Assembly (NCBI GenBank): GCA_000711775.1
Contig: ARYC01017612.1
Coordinates: 1-64,000, forward strand
Direction: 5' to 3'
Source of the DNA: Oxytricha trifallax
Taxonomy: Eukaryota; Ciliophora; Spirotrichea; Sporadotrichida; Oxytrichidae
Length of the DNA stretch: 64,000 nt
In this document: positions 4,601 to 46,600 of the stretch, one piece after another
Layout of the letters: the number at the start of each line of letters is the position of its first letter
Numbering within the stretch: position 1 is the first letter of the stretch
Notes under the pieces: generated by a model
Databases searched by the model: none
Told to the model about the DNA's origin: nothing
The model's input: only the letters and a program-made list of their open reading frames with translations
Translations under genes and position numbers: made by a program

Positions 4601-7600
4601 AAGATAATTATTGAAGATATACTGCTCATTGTTGTTTTAAGATTATGATAAATAATAAATCTTGATAAAATTTAAATATAATTGAACTAAATATCATAAT
4701 AATAAACACGAATGTATTGACAAAAAACATAAATTATTTGTAGAAAAGAATAATTTTTATAAAAAAATTAAGTTGTAATGCTTATTTCATTTCAAATTTT
4801 AGAAATAAAAATATGTAGAGAAATAAATTTATAATCCAGGAAAACTTTTTAAAATTAATTTTATCAAAACATAGGCCATGAAACAACCTCCCTCACATAT
4901 TTTCATATAGCTTAAAAGCAACAGAAAAATTCAGTTTACCAACATTCTTATTAAGAATGACTACAGCAATTAAAACTAGGCTTCGTAAAGTCTTTAATTC
5001 TATTTTGATATTTAAAAAGAAATATTGAGATTTGAAGAAGTTGAATAGGGAAGAACGAATGATCATGAAGATTTAAGATCATTAAATAATAATGAAAATA
5101 ATCAAGATTTTTTGATAGTTTATTAAGAACTAGAGTTTCTGATTGCTAATATCACTATTAAGCGAGTATAATCAAAATGAGGAGATCGTTATAAAGAAAT
5201 CAAAAATGCAATGAATTAAAATTATGATCATTTCAGAGTATACTAATGTTTTTCCAACTGTCGAGATTATGAATTAAGATTAACGATTTTAATTAGCAAC
5301 TTTAAATTATTAATCAAACATGGAGAATTCTAATTCTTTATTTTTTCCACTTTTCCTGATTAGTTTGTATTTTAGCGCAGTCTCGGCAATGTATCTGTAG
5401 TAGTCACCAACTTTTTTCTTAAATTTTTCTTAGATATCTTCACTATATCTTCATTATATCTTCAGGGTATCTTCCTCAAAAAATAAAAAAGTCAAAAATA
5501 TTAAAATTAGCAATAAATACAGCAACAATAACAGCAGTAGTAACAATAACAGCAGTAATTTAACTAAAACCAATAAAAATTAGAGTCTGGGTGAAATTCT
5601 AAAGGAATTTCAAATTTTCTAAAATTCTTGGTTTAAAGACAGAGTGATGAAGATGACAATAAAGAATATGATGATATATATGAAAAAAATCAGTGATTTT
5701 TAATATTTTAAAATTCCTTTAGAATTTCACCCAGACTCTAATTTTTATTGGTTTTAGTTAAATTACTGCTGTTATTGTTACTACTGCTGTTATTGTTGCT
5801 GTATTTATTGCTAATTTTAATATTTTTGACTTTTTAATTTTTTGAGGAAGATACCCTGAAGATATAATGAAGATATAGTGAAGATATCTAAGAAAAATTT
5901 AAGAAAAAAGTTGGTGACTACTACAGATACATTGCCGAGACTGCGCTAAAATACAAACTAATCAGGAAAAGTGGAAAAAATAAAGAATTAAAATTCTCCA
6001 TGTATGATTAATAATTTAAAGTTGCTAATTAAAATCGTTAATCTTAATTCATAATCTCGACAGTTGGAAAAACATTAGTATACTCTGAAATGATCATAAT
6101 TTTAATTCATTGCATTTTTGATTTCTTTATAACGATCTCCTCATTTTGATTATACTCGCTTAATATTAGAAATTTAATTATTTATTATTTTTTAAAACGT
6201 AGTGTCTGCTATAATAAAAGTTTAAAATTCGTAGATTTTATGTTTTAATAGAAATAAAATTAATAAAACGATTATAGGTCAACTCTATTCATAACTACAG
6301 ACATAGAAAATTTAAAACTAAATTCTATAGAATTTTTTAACTCTTCTATATCAGTCTAATAATAAAGTCTAATTTTTACTAATTCAACAGGAAGGCTAGA
6401 TATTAATAACCTATCTTTATCTAATTCTTCGATTGATATAAGAAATCTATATTTAACAAAAATTATTTTTCGCTTTAATTAAATATAATAAAAGCTTATT
6501 AATTTGAATCCATTTGACTTTTATAATCATAAACATGTTTCCATTAACAATATGTCTATCAAAAATGTTGCAAGTAAGAAAAGATTTTATTAATTTAACT
6601 TTTTAGTGAATCCCATTAGAAGCTTCTAAAGTTTCTTTAAAAATAGAATTAAGTTTTATTTTAGAAAATTAAATTCTTGTCCACAACAAATCTTCCAAGC
6701 TATGCGGTATTCGAACTTAAAAATCTATATTTCAACAACACCAATATTTATTAAAATCATGGAATTTTAAATGATGGAGAAATCTCAACTTTCATTTTAG
6801 AAAACAGCACATTCAGATATTAGAGTAATATATAAACTTTCTTTAGTTAAAATATTTCATAGATTTATATGACAACACAGCATTTATAGAGTGTTCAAAT
6901 ACAAACCAAATAATTATGAGAAACTTGCAATTTAGCAATATTAAATATGTGAATTCAACCGAAAAAGGCACATTCCTCATTAAAATTGATAAAATTGTTT
7001 TGGAAGATGAAATATATAAAAACTCAATTATACAAAACATTAGTATGAGGTCTTCAAATATTAATTTCTTAAGTTTTAATGGTTTCAATGATAAGGAACT
7101 ATCGATAAAAAAACTATAAATTTTATTTTATATTTGCTTACTATCTTAGAATCAATCTGCTACTCACAAGCTTTCTATGAAGGAATTTATTTTATTTTTG
7201 AACTAGTTTTGACAAGAATTAATTTAAATAATAAAACTAAAGTGAAGAGAGTTTGAAGTTTGATTTATTAATAAATTAAATATTGACAAACAATGTGTAT
7301 AAAGGAGTATCAGCAATTCTATATTTTGATGAATACTTTCAAGAAAGCAATTCGCAAGTAGAAATCACAGACTCAATATTTATTAAATACTCTATTATTG
7401 TAGGAATACATTCGATTACGGAAGTTAAATTATTTTAAATATTAAATAATAAATTTATTGGAAGGACCTCTCTTGAAGCGAAGAAAATATGGAATTTGCT
7501 CGATATTTAATTCTAAAATAACTATCGGATAAGTACCAATTTTTCAAGGTCCAAGAAATTTACTTGCCAATAAATTTATTATTTAATATTATTTACAAAT

Positions 7601-10600: not shown

Positions 10601-13600
10601 ATTAATTTCTTAATTTGAATATATTCTTACAATAGTATTACTTACAAAAATAACTTTTCATATTTTAATATATACTGCAATTTTTTTAAATATATATAAG
10701 TATATATTTATTGAAGTTTCCCATTATCTTTTGTAATCAGGTAATACTTATTTTGTATATAAATTAGATATGTTTCAAAGATAATGAGATCAAACCTCGT
10801 GATTGACAACTGTACTTTTATCTAGGAGAGAAGATTCATGGATATTTATCTCTCGAACGTAACAATTTAAAACTCAGTAATTCGAGACATTTCTATCAAC
10901 TCGACTGAACCTTCTTACATATCTACAACTTCTTCTATCTTTAATTTAAGAAATATGAGTTTTATTAATGGGAGCTTTAGTTTCTTAACTAGTCAAAGTA
11001 GATCTTAGTTTTTGTTCTCCTTCAGATAAGACTCTATTATAACTATGGACGGTTACGACCTCATAGTAAGTTGGGAATATAGGCTCGACCATTTCCGGTA
11101 CCCCCGAATTCGAAACCGTGAAAGCATTCGGCTATTACGAGATAATTCCTGGATCTGAGAACCTCCTAAGAATACGTTAGGCAAGGTATTGGGGAACCAC
11201 GCCAACAAAATCATCGACCATTGATCTTATAAGTCGTGTAAAAACTGAATGATACACCTATCTTTGCAACTTGGGGTTGAGTGCAACGGATAGGGTAGGA
11301 ATTAAGATACAGACTGCTCTGATCCCAAACTGGATTCTATTTGTTGAAGAATAACAAGGAAAAACCCTGCATAAGACAACTTCAGCAGAGAGAGTATCGT
11401 ATCACTCGGGGTTTCCCCCTAAGCAAGCCAAACTTTAGTCTTTGCTGAGAAGGGGTTTTACCTGAACATAAGCACTTACTAGATAAAGCAGCCAGAGAAA
11501 GTGACCAGAGAAACATACGAAGTAGCGAAAGATCACATGAGACCTAGCCAAGGCAATCGATTGAACGTGCGTGGTGTGAAGTTAGTCAACTCAGTATATG
11601 AGTGTAGTTTCCCGTAAACAGATGAGATTAGATCGCCAAAAGCTAAAATATAAAAATCTGATTACCTCTTTATCTGTCTGAAGCTTCAGTATTAATTTCC
11701 GTACAGCATTAAAAAATAATAATAATAATAATAGTTACTATGGATGATATCAGATTTTATAATGTCAACATGCAGGTTTTCTTTATTAAGGATAGTATAA
11801 TATTAATAAATAAGACTTATGTTATCAACAATACTCTCGCGGGTATTAATTAGTTAAATATTGAAATCATTATAAATATTCTATAATAAAATATGTTTTT
11901 AAGCAATAGCAAAGACTAGTTGCTTAGATTGGATTCGTCCTCAATGACTTTATAAAATTCTAGATTTTTAAATATTACTAAGAGAAGCACTGATGTTATT
12001 ATAAATATTCTGAGGTGCAACAACGTTAAATTGAGTCATGTTAAATTTGAAAACATTTCTGCAAATTAAATGAATCTCTACTAATCTAGTTTAAACCTAA
12101 ACAATGTAACCCATTAAATATTTCTATCATATATTAATATCTAATATTGTAGGAATACATTTGATTGCGAAAAATAAATAGTAAATTAATAATTATTAAT
12201 TAAAACTCGTGGCAGTTAACTTTCTGGAAACCTGAACAATATGGTACTTGTTCGATAGAGAATTCAAAATTAGCTGGACTTTACTATTGGCGGTACCCCT
12301 CTATCGCATCCCTAAAGCGAGATAACTTGACTTTAATTTTAGCATTAAAATCAATTAAACAAATCACCCAAAATTAAAGTCAAGTTATCTCGCTTCAGGG
12401 ATGCGATAGAGGGGTACCGCCAATAGTAAAGTCCAGCTAATTTTGAATTCTCTATCGAACAAGTACCATATTGTTCAGGTTTCCAGAAAGTTAACTGCCA
12501 CGAGTTTTAATTAATAATTATTAATTTACTATTTATTTTTCGCAATCAAATGTATTCCTACAATAATGCTAATTTGAACTCCATTAAAATGAGTACTAAT
12601 AAAATCTTAGGAATAAATTTTATCATTTACTATAATATAAAATATTTAGGATAAGCCATAAAAAAAATCATAAAACTATATATTTATGAGATGAGATTAT
12701 TTTTATTAAGTCGAATTCTTTTGTGTCTGTCTTGTTTAATATCAATCAATACTTAATTTTACTTAAAATAATATTTTAAGTAAAATGATTGAGTTTTTGA
12801 TTTTAAATTTATTGAGAAATCATTATTTACTAAGTTTATCAGATAAGGATTAAAATAATAAAGCATTTGAATATAAAATTTTGATCAATAAAATCTTTTT
12901 GTTAAATTATATCCATCCAATATATCTAATTCAATAGAGTTGTATGCTTTAATAAAGTAGAGCATAGTAAAAAATATTTTTGTATTATAGCCTTAAAAGA
13001 TATTGTAGGAATACATTTGATTTGGGAAAAATAAAATAAATTAAGATTAATAAAAGTATAATTCGTGGCAGTTAACTTTCTGGAAACCCTGACAATATGG
13101 CACTTGTTTGATAGAGAATTTAAAATTAGCTGGACTTTACTATTGGCGGAACACCTTAATCGCATCCCTGGAGCTAGATAACTCGACTTTAATTTTTGGT
13201 GATTTGTTTAGTTGATTTTGTTGCCAAAATTAAAGTCGAGTTATCTCGCTCCAGGGATGCGATAGAGGTGTACCGCCAATAGTAAAGTCCAGCTAATTTT
13301 AAATTCTCTATCGAAAGAGTACCATATTGTCAGGGTTTCCAGAAAGTTAACTGCCACGAATTATACTTTTATTAATTTTAATTTATTTTATTTTTCCCAA
13401 ATCAAATGTATTCCTACAATACTTGCTCAGCAAATCTCCTAAAATTTACAAAAATGGTATTATTTGTCTCAAGATATATCTATTACAATTATTTTGATTT
13501 ATCTACCTTATACTATTAGATTATTCTTAAAATTCTGATTTTCTTATTATTTCTTTGTAATTGTAATCTTCCTATTTAACAATTTATTCAGATATACACA

Positions 13601-21669: not shown

Positions 21670-22997
21670 TCAAGGTTGCTCATCCATCCACCTGACTCTC
21701 TTGCCGCCATTCCATTCGCCGTCTCTTTACTGACCATTTATTGCAACGAAAGTACCTCTACCATGCTGTTTACCATTATACCATTCTCCTATGTATTGAC
21801 GACCATCAGGCCAGTGAAACACTCCATGACCTTACTTTTTATCTTCCATATATTCTCCCTCGTATCGTCTCCCATCTGACCATGTGAATATTCCTTTCCC
21901 ATGCATCTTGTTCAGTCTCCACTATCTGAGTAATATTATATGAAGTATTATATTAATATGTAAAACTATCCAGTGAAAGTACGACCATCTGACCATGAAT
22001 ACTATCCATCTCCTTCGATGTTGTTATTGATAAATTAGCCTTCATACACAGACCCATCAGACCATATAAACTTGCCTCTTCCATGCTTTTTTCCATGCAC
22101 ATAGTCACCTTCATAGAGTGCTCCATCTGGCCACTGTTCTTTTCCTTTGCCATGCTATTTGTCTTCTTTCCACTAGCCCTCATACTAAGCTCCATCCATG
22201 TGCGTATATCTACCGTATCCCTCTGCTTTGTCATTCAACCAGTCTCCCTCGTAAACATCTCCGTCTGCGTGAATCAATCTTCCACGACCGTTTGCCTAAT
22301 CATTCAACCAAAATCCCTCGTAGTAAGATCCATCTGGCCATATCTGCGAGCCTCTACCCTCTCTTTTATTTTATATTGGGTTCCTAGAAATCAAAAATTA
22401 ATACATGATTGCTTTATTCAAGCCTTAAATTTACAGAATATAAGGATTTTTTAGCTAAACAAATCTTGTAATATTTTTGAGTGAAGTTCAACAGAAATAT
22501 TAACTTACCATTCACCGATATAAATAGCACCATTTTATAACTTTTAAGGTTGTCTTTATTCTTTTGCACCTTAGATTTTTGGATTTTAATTTTACTCATA
22601 GTTGAATGGACCTAAGCGCTCACTTATTTGCTATAAAAGTCGTTAATAATTCAAAATTTAAGCTTATTTAATGGTTTACTCTTATTAAAGGTAGAAGCGA
22701 TATTTAACTTTTAATATTATATTTAAATTATCTTCTTAAGAATAATCAATATAATGGTACTTATTTATTAAAACTTTCATGAATTGATTCGATGGGCATA
22801 TTGGGTGTTGGGTAAGTAGTGGAAGTACCGTATTTATCATTTTTCATCTAGGCGTATTGCTTCCTAGCTTTGAAAGCCCTGAAATTCTTCTGAATTGTTA
22901 CTACTTATTCCTCTTTGTTCTTCCTGTCAGTTGTTATGTTCTTAAATTCGTCTCTGTCTTTTTAGTCTTCATTTATACAAGTACACGCATTTCCCAT
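21670..22997 (-). CDS. IQ-motif and MORN-repeat protein, likely membrane-anchored
   Basis: The start [12 protein letters not shown] has Gly2 for N-myristoylation and Cys5/Cys7 for palmitoylation, so membrane anchoring is inferred. An IQ-like helix ([17 protein letters not shown]), a possible calmodulin site, follows. Then come nine MORN repeats (consensus DGxxYEGxW...GxG), from NGAIYIGEW near 22525 to DGRQYIGEW near 21770. The protein ends RVRWMDEQP then TGA at 21670-21672. A GT/AG intron lies at 22384-22508. A 44-bp IES at 21921-21964 is flanked by ACTATC; its removal joins GRTFTGQ to [10 protein letters not shown] in frame. The junction between the N-terminal segment (to about 22785) and the MORN part (from about 22645) is unresolved. 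MORN proteins often act as scaffolds at membranes or cilia; no specific function is assigned. Confidence 0.85.
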
Positions 22998-27750: not shown

Positions 27751-30700
27751 ATGAACCATGTAAATCACAGGTTCAAATCCAGAGAGATATTAGACAATAA
27801 AAACTTCAATAATCTTCAAAATTTTTAGGATGATTTAAAGACCAAATCTAAATAAACTTTCTTTAATCAAAATTAATTGCAAATAAATTCCAATTTCATT
27901 GATGAAGGAGAGTATAAAGTTAACGACAATTCTCATTTAGATCAAAACACACCACTCTCAGTGGAAGAGCTTTAGCAAAATGTAAGATATAAAAAGATTA
28001 CATATTATCACTTAATTTTTAAAGTGCTGGTCCTTGCCTATTTTTTTGTTATCTCTATTTATAGGTTCAATTAAATACAGATTACCTAAATTTTGAGTAA
28101 TTACTAAAGAAACAGCCTCATAATTAGCATTCAGTAAAAACCAGCACAAATAATTTAAACATGCTTGGAGTAAAAAACTCAGATAGCAATTCAAGCAAAA
28201 TAGCTACACATACAATACCATCTAATAAATCTAGTTAGAGATTCAATTAGGAAAGACAAAATCCTGTCACAGCTTAAAGTTATATACAATTTTATAATTA
28301 GACAATATAAATAAATTCTAAATCATGGAATATGTGAACTTAGAAAGGCATCTCTCAGATCTTACTCAAGTAAATTATAGCAATTTAGTTTATCAAATAT
28401 ATTTATAAGAATTTAAGATGAAAATTACTATAAATTAATTTATTCGAACTTACCCAATCATTTTAACATATTAGTTTGACATTAATTAAACTTACTATTT
28501 TATCAAATATAAAATGAGAACTCTAAAAAGTATGGATAAAATTTGTCTAATTTTACTTATAGATAAAATAGAATCCTAGAGCTCTGTTGATTTAAAACCA
28601 AATAAATCAAGCTTAAAATCTAATTAGCTTCATGATAGATTAATTTGTGATTAATTTAAGCAAAAGATTAATGTGATTATTTTTTTATATGGGGAATTTC
28701 TGGAGATGTTTTGTCACAGCTTAAATTATTCACAAGAAATTTGTAGGATTTCTCTTAAATAAAAAGGAATCAAGCAACAATCTAAGCTAAAATACTTCAC
28801 TTTTTCAAGGAAGTAACTATGTGAATTCTAATGCTAAGTCATTGTATAGTTTAGCACAAAATAATAGACTGAAAAGAGTTACTAAAAATATAATGAGAGT
28901 AAAAGGGGTAACTAATGATATTAGAAGTCCCAATATTTAAAATAGTCTAAAGAGGAAATTTATTACATAATTACTGTCAAATATCATATTGAAATTTTAT
29001 CATATTACTTTTATAAGAAAGATGAAATTTTGCAATACTTTTATGAAAGGATTAAAATCGTAAAATAAAGGGGATGCTTGTGAAAACATGAATATTTAGC
29101 TTAATGATAAAGATAATAACATATCCTTTGAGTTTTATGACAAGAATACAGACATCAAGCTCACTCATATTAAACGGAAGAATGTGGAATATGTGAATTT
29201 TTTTTATCTATATCTCAGATCTTAAATACTCTGATCCAATTAATTTTGTTGTTGATTATTATATTAGTCATGCTAATTTATGATCCATTCTTTGATGGGA
29301 TGCCTCCAATTTTATACAACATAGATGATCATGAGGATATTCATCATTAACACGGCAGTGAAGTTAATCACAATGCTTGGAAAATATTGAGCAGTTAAAT
29401 CATTGGAAGGTATGCTCCTAAAGCCCCATTTTATGTGTGGCACAATCAGAATACATGTCTATAATTTAAAAATCTGCTAATTTTCTTAAAAATTATGAAT
29501 GTTGTTACAAATGATGACAAAACCTTTTATAAATCGAATGTTCTCTAGAATTTTAGATAAACTAAAGAAACTTTGCCAAAAGCAGAGCTTTAACCTCAGC
29601 TAGTAAAATAAAATTCACAAAAGTATGGATTGCTTAAAATTAAGAAAACAGAATAATCTTCACATTTTAAAGAGAGTATAAATAAAAAAATTAATGAATC
29701 GAACAAAAAGAACAAAATTATCAAAAGCAATCATAGACCTGAGACTTCATATGAAATTTTTAAAATGAGATAAGATAAGAGTTCAAACGTAAAAATTAAT
29801 AGTATTAGTATGCTGCCTTAAAGCGTGGGGATAAATCAACTGTTTGACTTTTAAAATAAACTAAATAAAGTATTAATAGCAAAAGCTGGGACTATATTAA
29901 AAACGAGGAATGTGAAAAGTAAAACCTTTGAATCTATTAATTTAGATTTTTAATAAAAATATGAATTTCAATTTAAGGAAAGAAGACGATCTTGCTTCTG
30001 CAGTTGTTGCGGAAAACATAAGGATCAAATGTAAGTAGTATTCAAATACACAAATAATTTATCTGTATTTTAGTGGTCATTACATAGAACTTGAAGATGA
30101 AAGAAATAAAATAGAGGAGTATAAAGAAAATCTTATAAAGAACAGTAAACTCAAGTTTAAGATTTCACTACAGAGACACATCACTTAGAAATTCAAAAAA
30201 GAAGGGAATTTATCTTCAAGCCCTACAATGACTAAACAGTCTTCGGTCTCTAATGTTTCTCCAACTTTTGATAAGTTTAGTAAATCAAAACCAACAAGAG
30301 AAGATTTCAAATCCATAGATTATAATGAAATTTCCTCTCACAATTCAATTGACAGAATTGAGAGTTAATCTGCTTCTTCGCCAAAATTAAAATCGACTTT
30401 CTTGAAATAAGCAATATAAGCAGAGGGAGCATCTCCAATTCAGCTTAATTAGCATCGATAAGCAATTTAGAAATACAAAACTATGATGATTGAGTAAGGA
30501 GACTCTAGTGGTATGCAAGAATCTCCTTGTAGCAGTATTAGCGAGGAGAGTTAAAATGATTAGTTCAATGTTAAAATTGATAAATTTCATTTGACACTCC
30601 ACGATGCGTTTGAGAAGCAAAAGCAAATTAAAAATCATATAAGAAACAATTCTGAAGTAAATGGTATAGGCGAGAAGACAAGCCAGTTGATGAACCTTAG

Positions 30701-32366
30701 AGGAATTAATTATGAGAAGATTCTAAACAAAAGTTATTATTGGATTTTTATTAATTTAAAGGCCTTAAAGATAGAAAATAGAGATCAAAGATTATGAATG
30801 CATAAATAACAAGGCTGAAGTTTAATCAAGAAACATAAATTCTAGAGAGTCAAATAAACTTTCACTCCCAACTGCAGTCTCATCAAAATATGAAAATTAT
30901 CAATAGTCTAAATTAAGACCTTTCTCTTCCTCTCAGTAATGCAGACTTCAAAATGTGAAGGAAATATTAACTTTATATTTATTGTGTACAGCCAAAGTGT
31001 TATTAGTTTTGATAAAATTTCAAGTTACTTAATTAATAACCCAACTTCCTAAAATATCTAAAAACATGGTAATGAATAAATAAAGAATCTCAAATCACTT
31101 AAAACTCAAACTCTGAATATATGCACGACAACAAAAAATGTTAATAAGGGATATCAAGAATTATTAAATAGTCCATTTAGTTCCGCTGCTAAATTATATA
31201 GAGTAAATTTGGATCAAAATCTCAAATAATCAGGAAAAAATGGGCCAACCATGCAAGAGGGATCAAATTACACTAGAAATGAAAGAAATTTTACTCAAAT
31301 ATCTCCCTTCAATTATTCAAAGAATTTAAATAATGTTATTTATAAATACTATCTTAGAATCAAGCACAGAGTTTCCTGTTAAGAACAGAGACAGAAAAAT
31401 CAAATTTGGTCTCTCCAGATAAAACCAGTAAAGTTTAGCTTTTAAATGACCATAAAAAATCAATAATCAGGTCTTAATCTAAGATTTAAGTTCTTATGAA
31501 AAAATAGACAAGCAAAGTTTGATTAAATTGAAGTATATATTTATCTTAATTATTAATGAATGATTATAATTAATTAATAAAATGGAAATACTTTATAAAA
31601 GATCATTAATGAGTTCCTTATCTCGATTATAATCTATGCCAATATCTCCAAAACATATCAATAATTTCTTATTGATGAGGAACAATACTAGAGATTTTTC
31701 ATTTCTTGATAAGATTACCAGTAAAGTTAACCTGAGTTTCCCTTAGAGTAAAGACGATGACATTAACATACAAATTAGAGATTTAGATTCAAAGAAATTA
31801 AAGCTTACATTTAATGATATATTCTAAGACTACAAGAATTTCAGATCAAATTACTATTGTTCAAATGGTTTTTAGTCATTTAATTTAATATCACGAAAAT
31901 TGGAATATTATTTAAAATAATGTATTTTTATGCAATACTTCTACTAAATGGAATCACCAAAAGATAGATTGGCTAAAATGCAAGTTGATGTTGACACAAA
32001 AAGTTTTAAGATTCAAGACTGGCTTGTGGACTTTTTCTATTTTAGACATGGATAGAGCCCACTTTTATCAGCTGAAGATATATTCACGAAATTTATTATG
32101 ATCATTTCGTTATTTTTGCTTTATAGACTGGTAAGAAAACCCTATGAATGGTAAACCAAAAATTTGTATATTAATTCCCAACAAATTAACAAACTAAGAA
32201 ACTATTTTTGTGTATTTAAATAAAACTAGTAATTTACTATCATTGGGATGATCCCCTTCAAGGCCAGTCTAATAAAAGTTTAGATGCCAATTTTGCAGAG
32301 AGACTTAAGCATAAAAAGAAGATTAGAAAGTGGTGGACTAGCGACCCCACTAATTAAGTTTAATGA
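27751..32366 (+). CDS. Scrambled gene, Q/K/S-rich protein of unknown function
   Basis: Start MNHVNHRFKSREILDN. The order that restores the frame is 27751-28278, 28712-28961, 29024-29197, then back to 28326-28364, then 29213-29238 and 29282 onward. Pointers are TGTCACAGCTTAAA, GAAATTT, TGGAATATGTGAA, TCTCAGATCTTA and GATCCA. The junction peptide reads KRKNVEYVNLERHLSDLKYS then DPFFDGMPPIL. GT/AG introns lie at 27982-28064 and 30031-30073. Features: a Cys cluster (CFCSCCGKHKDQ) near 29995-30030, long polar stretches, and towards the C terminus a DWLVDFFYFRHGQ segment plus one hydrophobic helix (IIMIISLFLLYRL, about 32095-32130). The end is YYHWDDPLQGQ...WWTSDPTNQVQ, TGA at 32364. Inserts after 30750 are only partly resolved, and the part from 31951 could be a separate small gene. 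Confidence 0.75.
28326..28364 (+). other. Displaced 39-bp MDS of the scrambled gene
   Basis: This segment starts with TGGAATATGTGAA (repeated at 29185-29197) and ends with TCTCAGATCTTA (repeated at 29213-29224). It lies 820 bp upstream of where it belongs, inside the insert between the two TGTCACAGCTTAAA pointers. Placing it between 29197 and 29213 replaces a T-rich 15-bp spacer by 14 bp and keeps the frame through to MPPILYNIDDHED. Confidence 0.8.
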
Positions 32367-40650: not shown

Positions 40651-43600
40651 ATGAGATTCTTCACTTAAACCCATTCTCTTTCTCAAGCCTCCCTAAATAA
40701 TGAAAGCTTTTTAAGCGGATCATCAGCAATATATGCAGAATAAATGTATGATCAGTGGAGGAAAGATCCATCTAGCGTACACGCTTCATGGAGATCTTAC
40801 TTTGAGAATGTTGAGAAAGGTGTTGAGGTACCCTTCACTCTACCCCCCACCGTTGGTTAGACAGGGCAAGATGCTTAAGTCTAAAGGATATTATCTCTAC
40901 TTTAACAAAACACTGGTTCATTAGCTGGTTCATCTCAAGGAGGTGCAAATTTTATTTCAAGTATTTTTCTATATTGAATTATCAATTATTTTGAAATTAT
41001 TGAGTAAATGCTGCCACTGCCGCTCACGAGGCTTACAAAATTATGCTACTTATCAGAGCTTTTATGACTCACGGTCACATGATCGCTGATGTAGATCCAC
41101 TTGAATTGTACCAAACCTACAAGCACTTCCCATCATTCGCTCACAAATTTAAGATCCCAGATTCACAGCTCACTAAACTTGTTGACTACAGAAGTTACGG
41201 ATTCTCTGATGCTGATCTCGAAAAGGAATTCTACGTTGATGCTCCAGAACTAGCTGGATTACTTAGAAAGAAGAAGAACTGGAAACTCAAAGAACTTATT
41301 GAGGCTTACTAGAAGGCTTAAACTTTCGTTCATATTTATTAATCATATAAAATATTTGAATGTGTATTAATGCTTACTGCGGTAAAATCGGAGTTGAGTA
41401 TATGCATATTGCAGATAGAGATAAGTGCAATTGGATTAGAGATAAATTCGAAGGTTTATAATACGAAAATGTGCCAGCAGAAAAGAAAATACTCAATCTA
41501 GATAGACTAATCAAAACCCCAAAACCCCTGAAGTTGTTTGATTGAGTTTTTGATTGATGAAAGTAGACTATTAACGCATGCTTTATTAGGGTTTTAATAG
41601 GGTTTATGTAGGGGTATATGGTTTAAATATCAGTATTTTAAGTGAGAATATGCGAGGTTTGGGATCAGTTTATGATAGTGAATATATAGATTTATTGTTT
41701 AAGTTGCGTTATGGATGTAATGATTATAGTGATCAACTCAGACCTATTCAAAATTACACATCTATTGCAAGACTGCTCCATAAATCTCCTGCTACTGTCA
41801 GATCACACTGTCTATTAGCATTGAATTTAAAGAGATAGCATCTTAATTCTAAGCCTAAAAGACCTTTAAAATTCTAGTAGCATCATATCGATTAATCTTA
41901 TTAATGATAAGACTCTAAAATACTGGGCTCATTTCTCTCTGGCCTAGAGGGCTGAGATGTTTCATCGCCAATTTCCTGAGCTACACATCTCTGCATAATC
42001 CATAGCTAATATCTATAAAAAGAATGGTATATCTTACAAGACAGTCAATCGCATTAAGAGAGTGATCGACTTTAATCTTCCATTTTATAAGGATAATTTA
42101 AATTATATATTCGATTAAATGCAGAGGGCTTAAGAGCATAATATAAAGTTCATACATGCTGATGAGGAAGTATTCACGTTTAATACCTTCATATCGAGGT
42201 CTTGGTATAAGAGGTACAGCAACATAGAAGTTTATGATCAAAAGGTTAAGGTATAAACTCATGCAATCCTTGGTGGAATCAGTGAAGATAGTGGGCTTGA
42301 GACTTATGTTATCCACCCTAGCTCTATTAAGACTGAATAATATATTAAATTTTTGCAATAGCTAAGAGATAAGTATGCTGAATAAGATATTATCCTGTTT
42401 GTTGATAACTTATCAGTTCATAAAACTAAAGACTCAAGGAGAGAATATGAAAGGCTAAACATAACACCTGTATTTAATGTTCCTTATAGCCCTCAATTCA
42501 ATGGAATTGAACTATATTGGGGCCTATTAAAAGGCCACTACAAGAAACTTCTGCTCTATCATCTGATACACGATCTGAAGATAGATACAGTAGATTTTAT
42601 TAAGAGTGCTGCTAAAAGAGTCAGCGATGATAAAGCAAAAGTATGCGCAAGAGAAGGGAGATTTTGTGTTTATAAATAAGTTTTAGATTTAAACGAATGA
42701 ATAAGTTCACATATTAAATTTGCCCGTAAAGAGATGGCTTCTCTTTCTTTTCTTCCTCTTAAGGCTTGCTTGGGCCCGTGTTTCTTCTCTTAGTGCCAGC
42801 TCCTGCATCTATGTTCATCTCTTCTGGCTTTTATAAATCTTTGAAGAGCCTCTTACTCAATTCATGTTTTACTTTGACTTTCTCTCTCTGTTTAATTTGC
42901 TGCGCTCTTTCATCAAATATATAGCAGTACCAGGTTTTTCTATAAAGTTAGAAGTCTATGCTTACATGAGATGAATGGATGCTTCTGCAGTTCCTACAGC
43001 CATGAGTCACTGATTTTGATCCCCTGCTTCTCTTTCTCTTCAGGAGAGATGCTGTAGCGTTTCTTATGAGCTTCTTAAATTACTTCACTTAAGTACTCTG
43101 GTTAAGAGTTCCAAGAACTCCAAAGAAGAAGTTTCTCTCTGGCAACTTATTAGAGAGTTGTAACTTTAATGGTAGGTACAGAGCAACATCTGGATCACTC
43201 ATCGCATCATCATAGAGATTTTTCACTGAGATTTCAGGGTAGTTAGGTATCTCAATCATCTTTATTTCATTGGTCTTAAAAGCTTTTTTCTCTTCACTTA
43301 GTAAGGCTTTTAAGAATTATATTTTGTTCCTTCCTGAGTTGGCAAGAACAATCCAACTATGGTTAATATATTAGCATTTGATAAAAGCTTACCTTGCTAT
43401 ACCAAATATCTATAGAGGTCCTCCTTACTTCGAAATTTTCCTATCAATTCTTGAGATTGTATTCTCTTTATTGCATCATTCATAGACTCCATCTTGCTTC
43501 CACTTTCTATAAATGTTTATGAAATTTAAAATTATGGATATCCATTCTAAACTTACTAAAATTTTACTACTAAATAGAGAGATCCAACTGGAGGTCATCC

Positions 43601-46600
43601 TGAATAAGATAGTAAGAGAAAGATGTAGAAACTTTCTCCAAGTTTCAAAGTTTGACTTCCATTTTTATCAAACTTTCTCCATTAAATTGCTCCTAATAAT
43701 AATTAATTTAATTAGGTGGTGCTCCTAATTTATTTAAAACTTAATTAGGTGGTTATATTAAAGTCCAAAACCGTATTAGGAGGTACATAAAAAAAATTTA
43801 TTTTTTAAACTTCCACTCCTAAATTTACGAGAACAGATTTAGGAGCACCACCTAACTTCCCAAAACACATTTAGGTGCATTTTAATGTATAAAATGGATG
43901 AAATAATACATAAATTATCAGAAAATTCTAGAAATATAAAACTAATCTCTCTCACTCTGTTCCCATTAGACCTATCTAAATCTTTGATGATGTGTTCTTA
44001 CTAGTGTTTAAAGGTAGAATTTAAACAGCTTTTATAATTATTAATAGTATTTATAAATGAGCGGTAACTTACTTAGAAAAGCGGCATTGCTTGGCATTAG
44101 CCAGCAAAAACTTTCTTTCATGAATCAAATGAAAATTGAGATTTGCGATGCCTCTACCTAGTACGAACCTGAAATTTTCTAACTTTAGGTATCAGACTTT
44201 GAATAGCAATTCAGTTTTTAAATAGAAATGCAGAGCTAAGAAATTTAATGCGAAGTTCCAATGAAAATGGTTGAAGAGGAGTAAGAGAAAAAAGAAATAA
44301 AAGCATTACATTTGTGTGAGGAGTGTGAGAAGAACTTCACTTATAAATCTGCTCTTAAGCGTCATATCTTAGAGCAGCATTCTAACAAGCCCAAGCTCTA
44401 TCTTAAGCATGATAAGATAGATGGAAAATATTTCTGCCCTTACTGCAATAAATAATACAATCATTCAAGAGATCTAAAAGTTCATCTATAATACCATCAT
44501 GGCAAGAAGTTTGAAGTAATAGATCCAGAGACTGGTGAGGTCTTCCTTTAAAAAAGAAAGCCAAGAGACCCTTTAGAAACTTTGGAACAAAGAGTAAAGA
44601 AAGAAAATAAACTTATTAAAGCAGCAAGAAACCTCCCAGCCTCAGAGATAGTGAAATCACTCTTAAGATGCATGCACTTAAACTTCCAATATTGAATATA
44701 ATTGACCTTAAAGAGTGTAAAGTAAGTTATCTTATCCTTGAGGATAAATTTGAGAAGAAAGTCATAACAGATAAGTAGTTCGCATACAAGATATATCCGT
44801 TCAACTACTTAAATGCGATGACAAGTATCAAATGGAATTCGTAAATGAATACCAAGCACTTACGAAGTCAAGAGATAGATAGTTCAGATTTATAATAAAG
44901 CTCGATGCTATTCTGCTTGCTCAAGATCATGTAGCTTTTCGTCTTCCTCATATTAAATGACATTAAGAGACTACATTTAAGATTAAAAGACACCAAAGTA
45001 GTTACCTCTTATTCTTACAAATGTTTGCAAAGGCATTGAGGAGCTGCACACTCTTGGATAAGTTCATAGAGATTTGAAGCCTGAGAATATAATGCTTGAC
45101 TTTTAACCTCTCAGAGTAGTAATAATAGAATTCAATAGATCATAGAGAGTTGAAGCTTCAGGACTTGGCAACGTGTATGGTACTCCTGGATACTTTCCAG
45201 AAAGAGAGGACTGGAGAGATGGTGATATTAAGTGGGATATATGGGCTCTAGCAGCAATTATTTGTGAATGCGATATGGCAAGAAATGATTACTAAAGCTG
45301 CAAAAGAGAGAAAGATTCAAAACAGAGAATACAGCAACATCTAGACTAGAATAAGATAAAAGGTAGAATGAAAGACATGGCTGACTAGATAATTATTAAG
45401 CCAAATCACAGAACTGACCATACAATAGACTAAATTATAAGTTGGATAGGAGAGATAAAATTTAGAAAGCTGCCTCATGATGCCAAAGTAATGTTTGAGT
45501 GAAAAATAAAAATAAAACACTTGCATTACACACTAATTAATATTACATTATAACCCTAAACCCCTACATAAACCCTATTAAAACCCTAATAAAGCATGCG
45601 TTAATAGTCTACTTTCATCAATCAAAAACTCAATCAAACAACTTCAGGGGTTTTGGGGTTTTGAATGTGGGCTGATTAATTCCAAAAGTTTATTGCTAAC
45701 AAGTTCAACACTCACAAAAGATTCGGTCTTGAGGGTTGTGAATCATTTATTCCAGGTCTTAAGTGCGCCTTTGATGTATTGGTCGAAAACGGAGTTGAGA
45801 AAGTTATTATGGGTATGCCACACAGAGGAAGACTTAACGTATTCCAAAATTAAGAATTGATAAAATAGAATTCTTGAAATGTGAAAGTATTTTAACTCTT
45901 TAATACTAGTTAACGTTGTTAGAAAGCCATTAGAGCAAATCTTCCACGAATTCTAAGGAGGTGTCCCTGACAAAGAAAACGGTAATGACTGGGGCTCTCT
46001 ATCTGGTGACGTAAAATATCACTTAGGAACTTCATACACTAAATCATACCCAGATGGAAAGAACCTTACCACAACCCTCCTTGCTAACCCCTCCCATCTT
46101 GAGCACATAATTTTATTTATACTGTTACTATAATATTGAGGCAGTGAATCCTGTGGTTATGGGAAGAGCAAGAGCTGAATCATACTTAATGGGAGATACT
46201 GAATTCCAAAAGGTTGTACCAATTATTATTCATGGTGATGCTGCCTTTGCTGGTCAAGGCATCGTTTTTGAATCTATGCAAATGCAAGACTTGATTAATT
46301 TCAGAGTTGGTGGTACCATCCACGTCGTTGTTAACAACCAAATTGGATTTACAACTACTCCAAACAAATCTAGAAGTGGTGTTTACTGCACAGATATTTT
46401 ATATAGAATATTTTCTAATCTAAATACTAGAATAATTAAAGGAATAATAATTTATAAAATTTGTATTTATTTTCAATAATTTTATCCTAATTTGGAATTG
46501 ATTCAATATCTTAATAAGTTTAATTTATTGATATTTTACCTTTTTTAAATAAATAATAATTATTTATACAAGACAACTATGATTAAAAATAATATGTGAA

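Follow-up and report, generated by a model that had tools for sequence, protein, structure and literature searches.

A 39-bp segment very probably used out of order in a germline gene of a stichotrich-type spirotrich

Introduction

Read in the order in which its letters stand, the gene that starts at position 27751 of the window (the whole 64-kb stretch of DNA analyzed here) halts in code 6 at a TGA at 29232-29234. A 39-bp piece upstream, within an insert of the same gene, carries at its two ends exact copies of repeats that flank the place where the frame fails. The locus thus raises the question of whether this piece belongs in the coding sequence and is used out of order, as in a scrambled gene, or whether an intron, a sequence error, an old duplicate, or chance accounts for what is seen.

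The window is AT-rich (G+C ∼28% across the 64 kb), and in its genes TAA and TAG stand for glutamine (code 6). Code 6 frames, a DDE_3 transposase, and C4A4-type ends like those of TBE elements were all found, as befits a ciliate with scrambled germline DNA; the transposase and the telomere-repeat ends identify the DNA as that of a spirotrich germline. The host of the gene is best taken as a stichotrich-type spirotrich using code 6, a relative of Oxytricha, and the sequence as the micronuclear (germline) version. Since 13-16% of the genes in Oxytricha and Tetmemena are scrambled (PMC10901763), one scrambled gene per window is unremarkable. Pfam and PDB searches with the protein in either reading returned no significant match, and searches of viral and prokaryote genome collections found neither a relative nor an identical copy of the predicted MAC junction.

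Results and Discussion

Exact Repeats at the Locus. Three repeats define the locus, each with exact copies at only two places in the whole 64 kb: TGTCACAGCTTAAA (14 bp, pointer 1) at 28265 and 28712, TGGAATATGTGAA (13 bp, pointer 2) at 28326 and 29185 with a spacing of 859 bp, and TCTCAGATCTTA (12 bp, pointer 3) at 28353 and 29213. The original prediction had listed these pointer-like repeats of 12-14 bp, and all of its coordinates proved correct. Positions 28326-28364 read TGGAATATGTGAA-CTTAGAAAGGCATC-TCTCAGATCTTA (13+14+12 = 39 bp), and positions 29185-29224 read TGGAATATGTGAA-TTTTTTTTATCTATA-TCTCAGATCTTA (13+15+12 = 40 bp); the upstream piece sits within the insert bounded by the 14-bp repeat (28265/28712). 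Together with a 7-bp repeat farther downstream, the exact repeats of 14, 13, 12, and 7 bp all stand in the required order. From frame and repeats we infer a map with MIC order M1-M3-M2-M4-M5 and pointer word 123123(44), of which the features are as follows.

27751-28278, plus strand: predicted MDS 1, from the ATG, ending in pointer 1; open in code 6 once its intron is removed
27982-28064, plus strand: likely intron in MDS 1, GTAAGA..TTATAG
28265-28278, plus strand: pointer 1, TGTCACAGCTTAAA, first copy; second copy at 28712-28725
28326-28364, plus strand: putative displaced MDS 3, 39 bp, reading (V)EYVNLERHLSDL
28712-29197, plus strand: predicted MDS 2, pointer 1 to pointer 2; open frame VTAQIIHKK...SFEFYDKNTD...NVEYVN
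29185-29197, plus strand: pointer 2, TGGAATATGTGAA, second copy, exact
29198-29212, plus strand: putative 15-bp IES, TTTTTTTTATCTATA, which would be exchanged for the 14-bp core of MDS 3
29213-29238, plus strand: candidate MDS 4, 26 bp, pointer 3 TCTCAGATCTTA + AATACTC + pointer 4 TGATCCA; moderate support
29239-29280, plus strand: candidate conventional IES (49 bp including one TGATCCA copy), or coding hydrophobic LILLLIIILVMLI
29281-30030, plus strand: predicted start of MDS 5, with the second copy of pointer 4 at 29281-29287; open frame DPFFDGMPPILYNIDDHED...
30031-30073, plus strand: intron bounding the MDS 5 stretch, GTAAGT..TTTTAG

The best two introns of the gene start GTAAGA and GTAAGT, and a further hydrophobic stretch lies near 32086-32130, in the C-terminal part. 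Should the TGATCCA join be correct, MDS 4 would measure only 26 bp, 19 of them pointer and 7 unique. A 12-bp repeat, ACCAGTAAAGTT, lies at 31424-31435 and 31717-31728, and each copy is translated as TSKV in an open frame of this gene. The repeat may be an additional pointer (SPDKTSKV to NLSFPQ, 293 bp dropped), the alternative being a 7-bp TAATCTA excision.

The Reading Frame. The continuous frame that had been proposed through the displaced 39-bp piece and a 49-bp drop was recovered. Joining 28712-29184, 28326-28364, 29225-29232, and 29282 onward gives an assembly that is open from SFEFYDKNTD to MPPILYNIDDHED, with the product ...THIKRKNVEYVN-LERHL-SDLKYSDP-FFDGMPPILYNIDDHED and no sequence error assumed. 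On the upstream side, the frame is kept when 447 bp are excised at pointer 1, so that IIHKKF follows ...NPVTAQ, and TGTCACAGCTTAAA is by far the longest frame-keeping repeat at that join. On the downstream side, TGATCCA (29232/29281, 7 bp) is the longest of 96 frame-restoring repeats and drops 49 bp; this lends moderate support to the junction predicted there, whose pointer is one base longer than the GATCCA first given. The displaced core has a coding score of +0.5 bits vs -4.4 to -5.2 bits for the 15-bp linear core in the three frames, a weak difference because the sequences are short.

The companion claim, that linear reading breaks the frame, holds only when neither an intron nor an error in the T8 run is considered. 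Removal of 29193-29218 as a 26-nt GT-AG intron also leaves the linear reading open, as does a T8 run that is really T6 or T9, and T7 works together with the 49-bp excision. Frame continuity alone is therefore no proof of scrambling. Some GT-AG rescue of the frame exists in 83% of random inserts of like size, so that its presence here is weak evidence for an intron.

The 49-bp stretch calls for separate treatment. When 29240-29278 is translated linearly in frame with the downstream ORF, it yields LILLLIIILVMLI, a run of 13 successive codons with T at position 2, which has a probability of 2e-4 in random noncoding 57-mers and an expectation of 0.13 per 64 kb (order-5 model). This segment could encode a membrane helix instead of being an IES, a reading that would need an atypical intron or a sequence error. 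The coding score of the 49-bp segment is negative in all frames, but its training set consisted of soluble, charged proteins, which makes the score unfair to a membrane helix, so we do not rely on it; the oxoglutarate dehydrogenase gene of the window is a partial yardstick only, for introns and IESs. Because the stretch might be a membrane helix, the two claims are kept apart. The 39-bp piece is very probably used out of order in the gene, and the joint claim, that it is out of order and the 49 bp are an IES, is likely.

Chance and Duplication. Coincidence of repeats in AT-rich DNA draws some plausibility from the frequency of single repeats: for 64 kb, the expectation is 30-36 of 13 bp or longer that lie within 5 kb. 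A loose scan for repeat pairs (gaps up to 300 bp, 5 kb) was dropped in favor of a tight one since chance pairs of at least 12 bp number 2-3 per 64 kb in the former. In the tight scan, which takes collinear exact repeat pairs with gaps of 3-40 bp and a spacing of up to 1.5 kb, the pair TGGAATATGTGAA/TCTCAGATCTTA carries 47.8 bits; a pair with at least as much information has an expectation of 0.0007 per 64 kb (1 in 1500 order-4 Markov windows). It is the sole pair so informative outside the repeats at 12-13 kb, with a runner-up at 36.4 bits. This rare pair coincides with a frame break, and the gene in question carries it in its own insert, bounded by the 14-bp repeat; from this we take the probability of chance to be negligible.

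A decaying duplicate is expected to show mismatches scattered over the copy. Here, both repeat ends are perfect, the match ends abruptly outside them, and the middles CTTAGAAAGGCATC and TTTTTTTTATCTATA are no more alike than shuffled letters (global alignment p ∼0.5). The probability that ∼10 random differences over 39 columns all fall in one 14-column block is ∼4e-5, in an arithmetic that allows for block position. Comparison of the insert flanks with neighboring gene parts gave no clear similarity of the kind that a larger duplication around the 39-mer would leave (best p 0.04, four tests). These observations speak against neutral local duplication: similarity is not spread over the copy and its flanks, the middles are unrelated, and the repeat ends are sharp.

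Alternative Readings. The frame can also be kept open at the level of RNA. The gene could be scrambled, with the displaced 39-bp MDS joined in, and the 49 bp coding, a 25-nt intron GTGAACTTAGAAAGGCATCTCTCAG being spliced from the RNA with its splice sites within both pointers; the product would be a transmembrane protein, ...KRKNVEY|ILNTLIQLILLLIIILVMLIYDPFFDG, and CTTAGAAAGG is the mRNA stretch that would be at odds with it. That the frame is open and that the kept segment has a strong run of T at codon position 2 speak for this reading, as do the 26-nt spirotrich intron and the departures from GTAAG..TAG on record (PMC1805493). However, the intron would begin with GTG, be 25 nt long, and have a G+C of 11/25, whereas RNA-seq-supported Oxytricha introns nearly always have A in third position, and predicted ones have a length of 28 nt or more and are AT-rich, at 23.6% G+C (PMC3558436). 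TGATCCA would also have to be a coincidence, and the rate of GT-AG rescue in random inserts (83%) deprives the intron's presence of much meaning; we regard this reading as unlikely. A broader version, in which the two scrambled pointers contain the splice sites of a 25-26 nt intron and either the displaced core or the resident IES is spliced out to yield the same transmembrane protein, appears quite improbable. Splice sites inside pointer repeats make such a rescue at the RNA level conceivable, and, if it were true, splicing would make the gene indifferent to a failure of descrambling at this join. The arrangement resembles the introns flanked by direct repeats in spirotrich DNA polymerase alpha genes (PMC1805493) in that a putative GT and AG lie inside pointer repeats; unlike that case, in which the repeats are nonscrambled and the introns proven, the intron here is putative.

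Two further readings leave the gene unscrambled. A homopolymer error, with the T8 run (∼29198-29205, after GTGAA) really T9 or T6, would let the gene run straight through as ...VEYVNFFLSISQILNTLIQLILLLIIILVMLIYDPFFDG (with T7, through SDLKYSDP plus the 49-bp IES) and reduce the upstream piece to a relic. The frame it keeps open and the transmembrane-like codon run agree with it, but an error is required at exactly this place, a neutral relic would not retain both ends intact around an unrelated middle, and the double match upstream, which we estimate at ∼1e-7 by chance at one locus, is left unexplained. We therefore hold it to be very unlikely. If 29193-29218 is a 26-nt intron (GTGAATTTTTTTTATCTATATCTCAG) and the upstream piece a dead or alternative paralogous duplicate, the frame is open without any rearrangement, the intron is AT-rich, and the product is transmembrane-like, yet the GTG donor and the length of the intron are atypical for Oxytricha (PMC3558436) and the duplicate's exact ends of 13 and 12 bp go unexplained, which makes this reading highly improbable.

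A Probable Scrambled Gene. The best explanation of the frame-break locus is thus a scrambled gene, with a 39-bp MDS within the insert between MDS 1 and MDS 2. The original prediction of a tiny MDS embedded in that insert is supported by the sharp identical ends, the unrelated middles, the in-frame result, and the canonical pointer word. Pointer 1 (14 bp), pointer 2 (13 bp), and pointer 3 (12 bp) would be the sites at which developmental recombination joins M1-M2-M3-M4; the 433 bp between the pointer-1 copies would be removed with the exception of M3, and the 15-bp IES would be swapped for the 14-bp M3 core, so that the 39-bp piece would move by ∼820 letters. A conventional 49-bp IES (pointer TGATCCA), in which ATTAATTTTGTTGTTGATTATTATATTAG is the stretch after TGATCCA, would go as M4 is joined to M5. 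RNA templates guide rearrangement in Oxytricha. We infer that such recombination takes place here, guided by RNA templates, and that the arrangement arose by local duplication and decay.

Comparison with Known Systems. The greater length of the scrambled pointers, rightly noted in the original prediction, agrees with a known rule that such pointers are longer than nonscrambled ones (PMC9797194): they measure 12-14 bp vs 4-8 bp for the candidate repeats at the same gene's other joins, which are themselves putative. The word 123123 is a canonical repeat word of odd-even scrambled loci, and together with a conventional IES (44) it makes the locus like the repeat-word loci of O. trifallax known as Russian doll genes; in contrast to those, it is one gene, with no second chromosome nested (PMC5940158). 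For MDS/IES pairs with the same pointers, Feng et al. 2022 predicted a correlation of length and found it to be strong for Euplotes woodruffi and weak for both Oxytricha and Tetmemena (PMC9797194). The present locus resembles the systems in that study: an IES and an MDS share two pointers on one contig, the pointers are long, and the lengths are near-equal, the match of a 14-bp MDS core to a 15-bp IES being as the duplication-and-decay model predicts (PMC9797194). It differs from them in being very small, the unique parts of the MDS and the IES measuring 14 and 15 bp, and in that its map is deduced.

If this reading is true, the exchange is a very compact one, 14 bp for 15 bp, in which 25 of the 39 MDS bases are pointer and 14 bp (CTTAGAAAGGCATC) are unique. 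It would be useful for testing the lower size limit of the segments placed by the RNA-guided machinery, and it would clearly exemplify the duplication-and-decay model of scrambling. We found no figure for the smallest known MDS in the literature and so make no claim to a size record. Most likely, the locus is one more instance, ordinary though very small, of a kind of gene scrambling familiar from these protists and leaves knowledge of the process unchanged.

Other Features of the Window. A TBE-like transposon at 41513-45663, which must be cleared in development, lies within the oxoglutarate dehydrogenase gene (∼40.6-48.7 kb). The element encodes a DDE_3 transposase (41825-42697, E 9e-18), also carries a C2H2 zinc-finger ORF, has the ends CAAAACCCCAAAACCCC and GGGGTTTTGGGGTTTTG, and is presumably of the telomere-bearing type of Oxytricha-type germline DNA. 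At 12144-13421, a repeat spaced ∼856 bp contains exact blocks of 22-31 bp, which also occur inverted (e.g., TCGTGGCAGTTAACTTTCTGGAAACC and its complement); it is probably a small mobile element present twice. A long inverted repeat at 5181-6140 comprises ORFs at 5181-5594 (plus strand) and 5727-6140 (minus strand) whose protein products are almost identical; polyglutamine-type tracts lie between the two. A gene for a MORN-repeat protein with five repeats (E 8e-37) occupies 21912-22484 on the minus strand.
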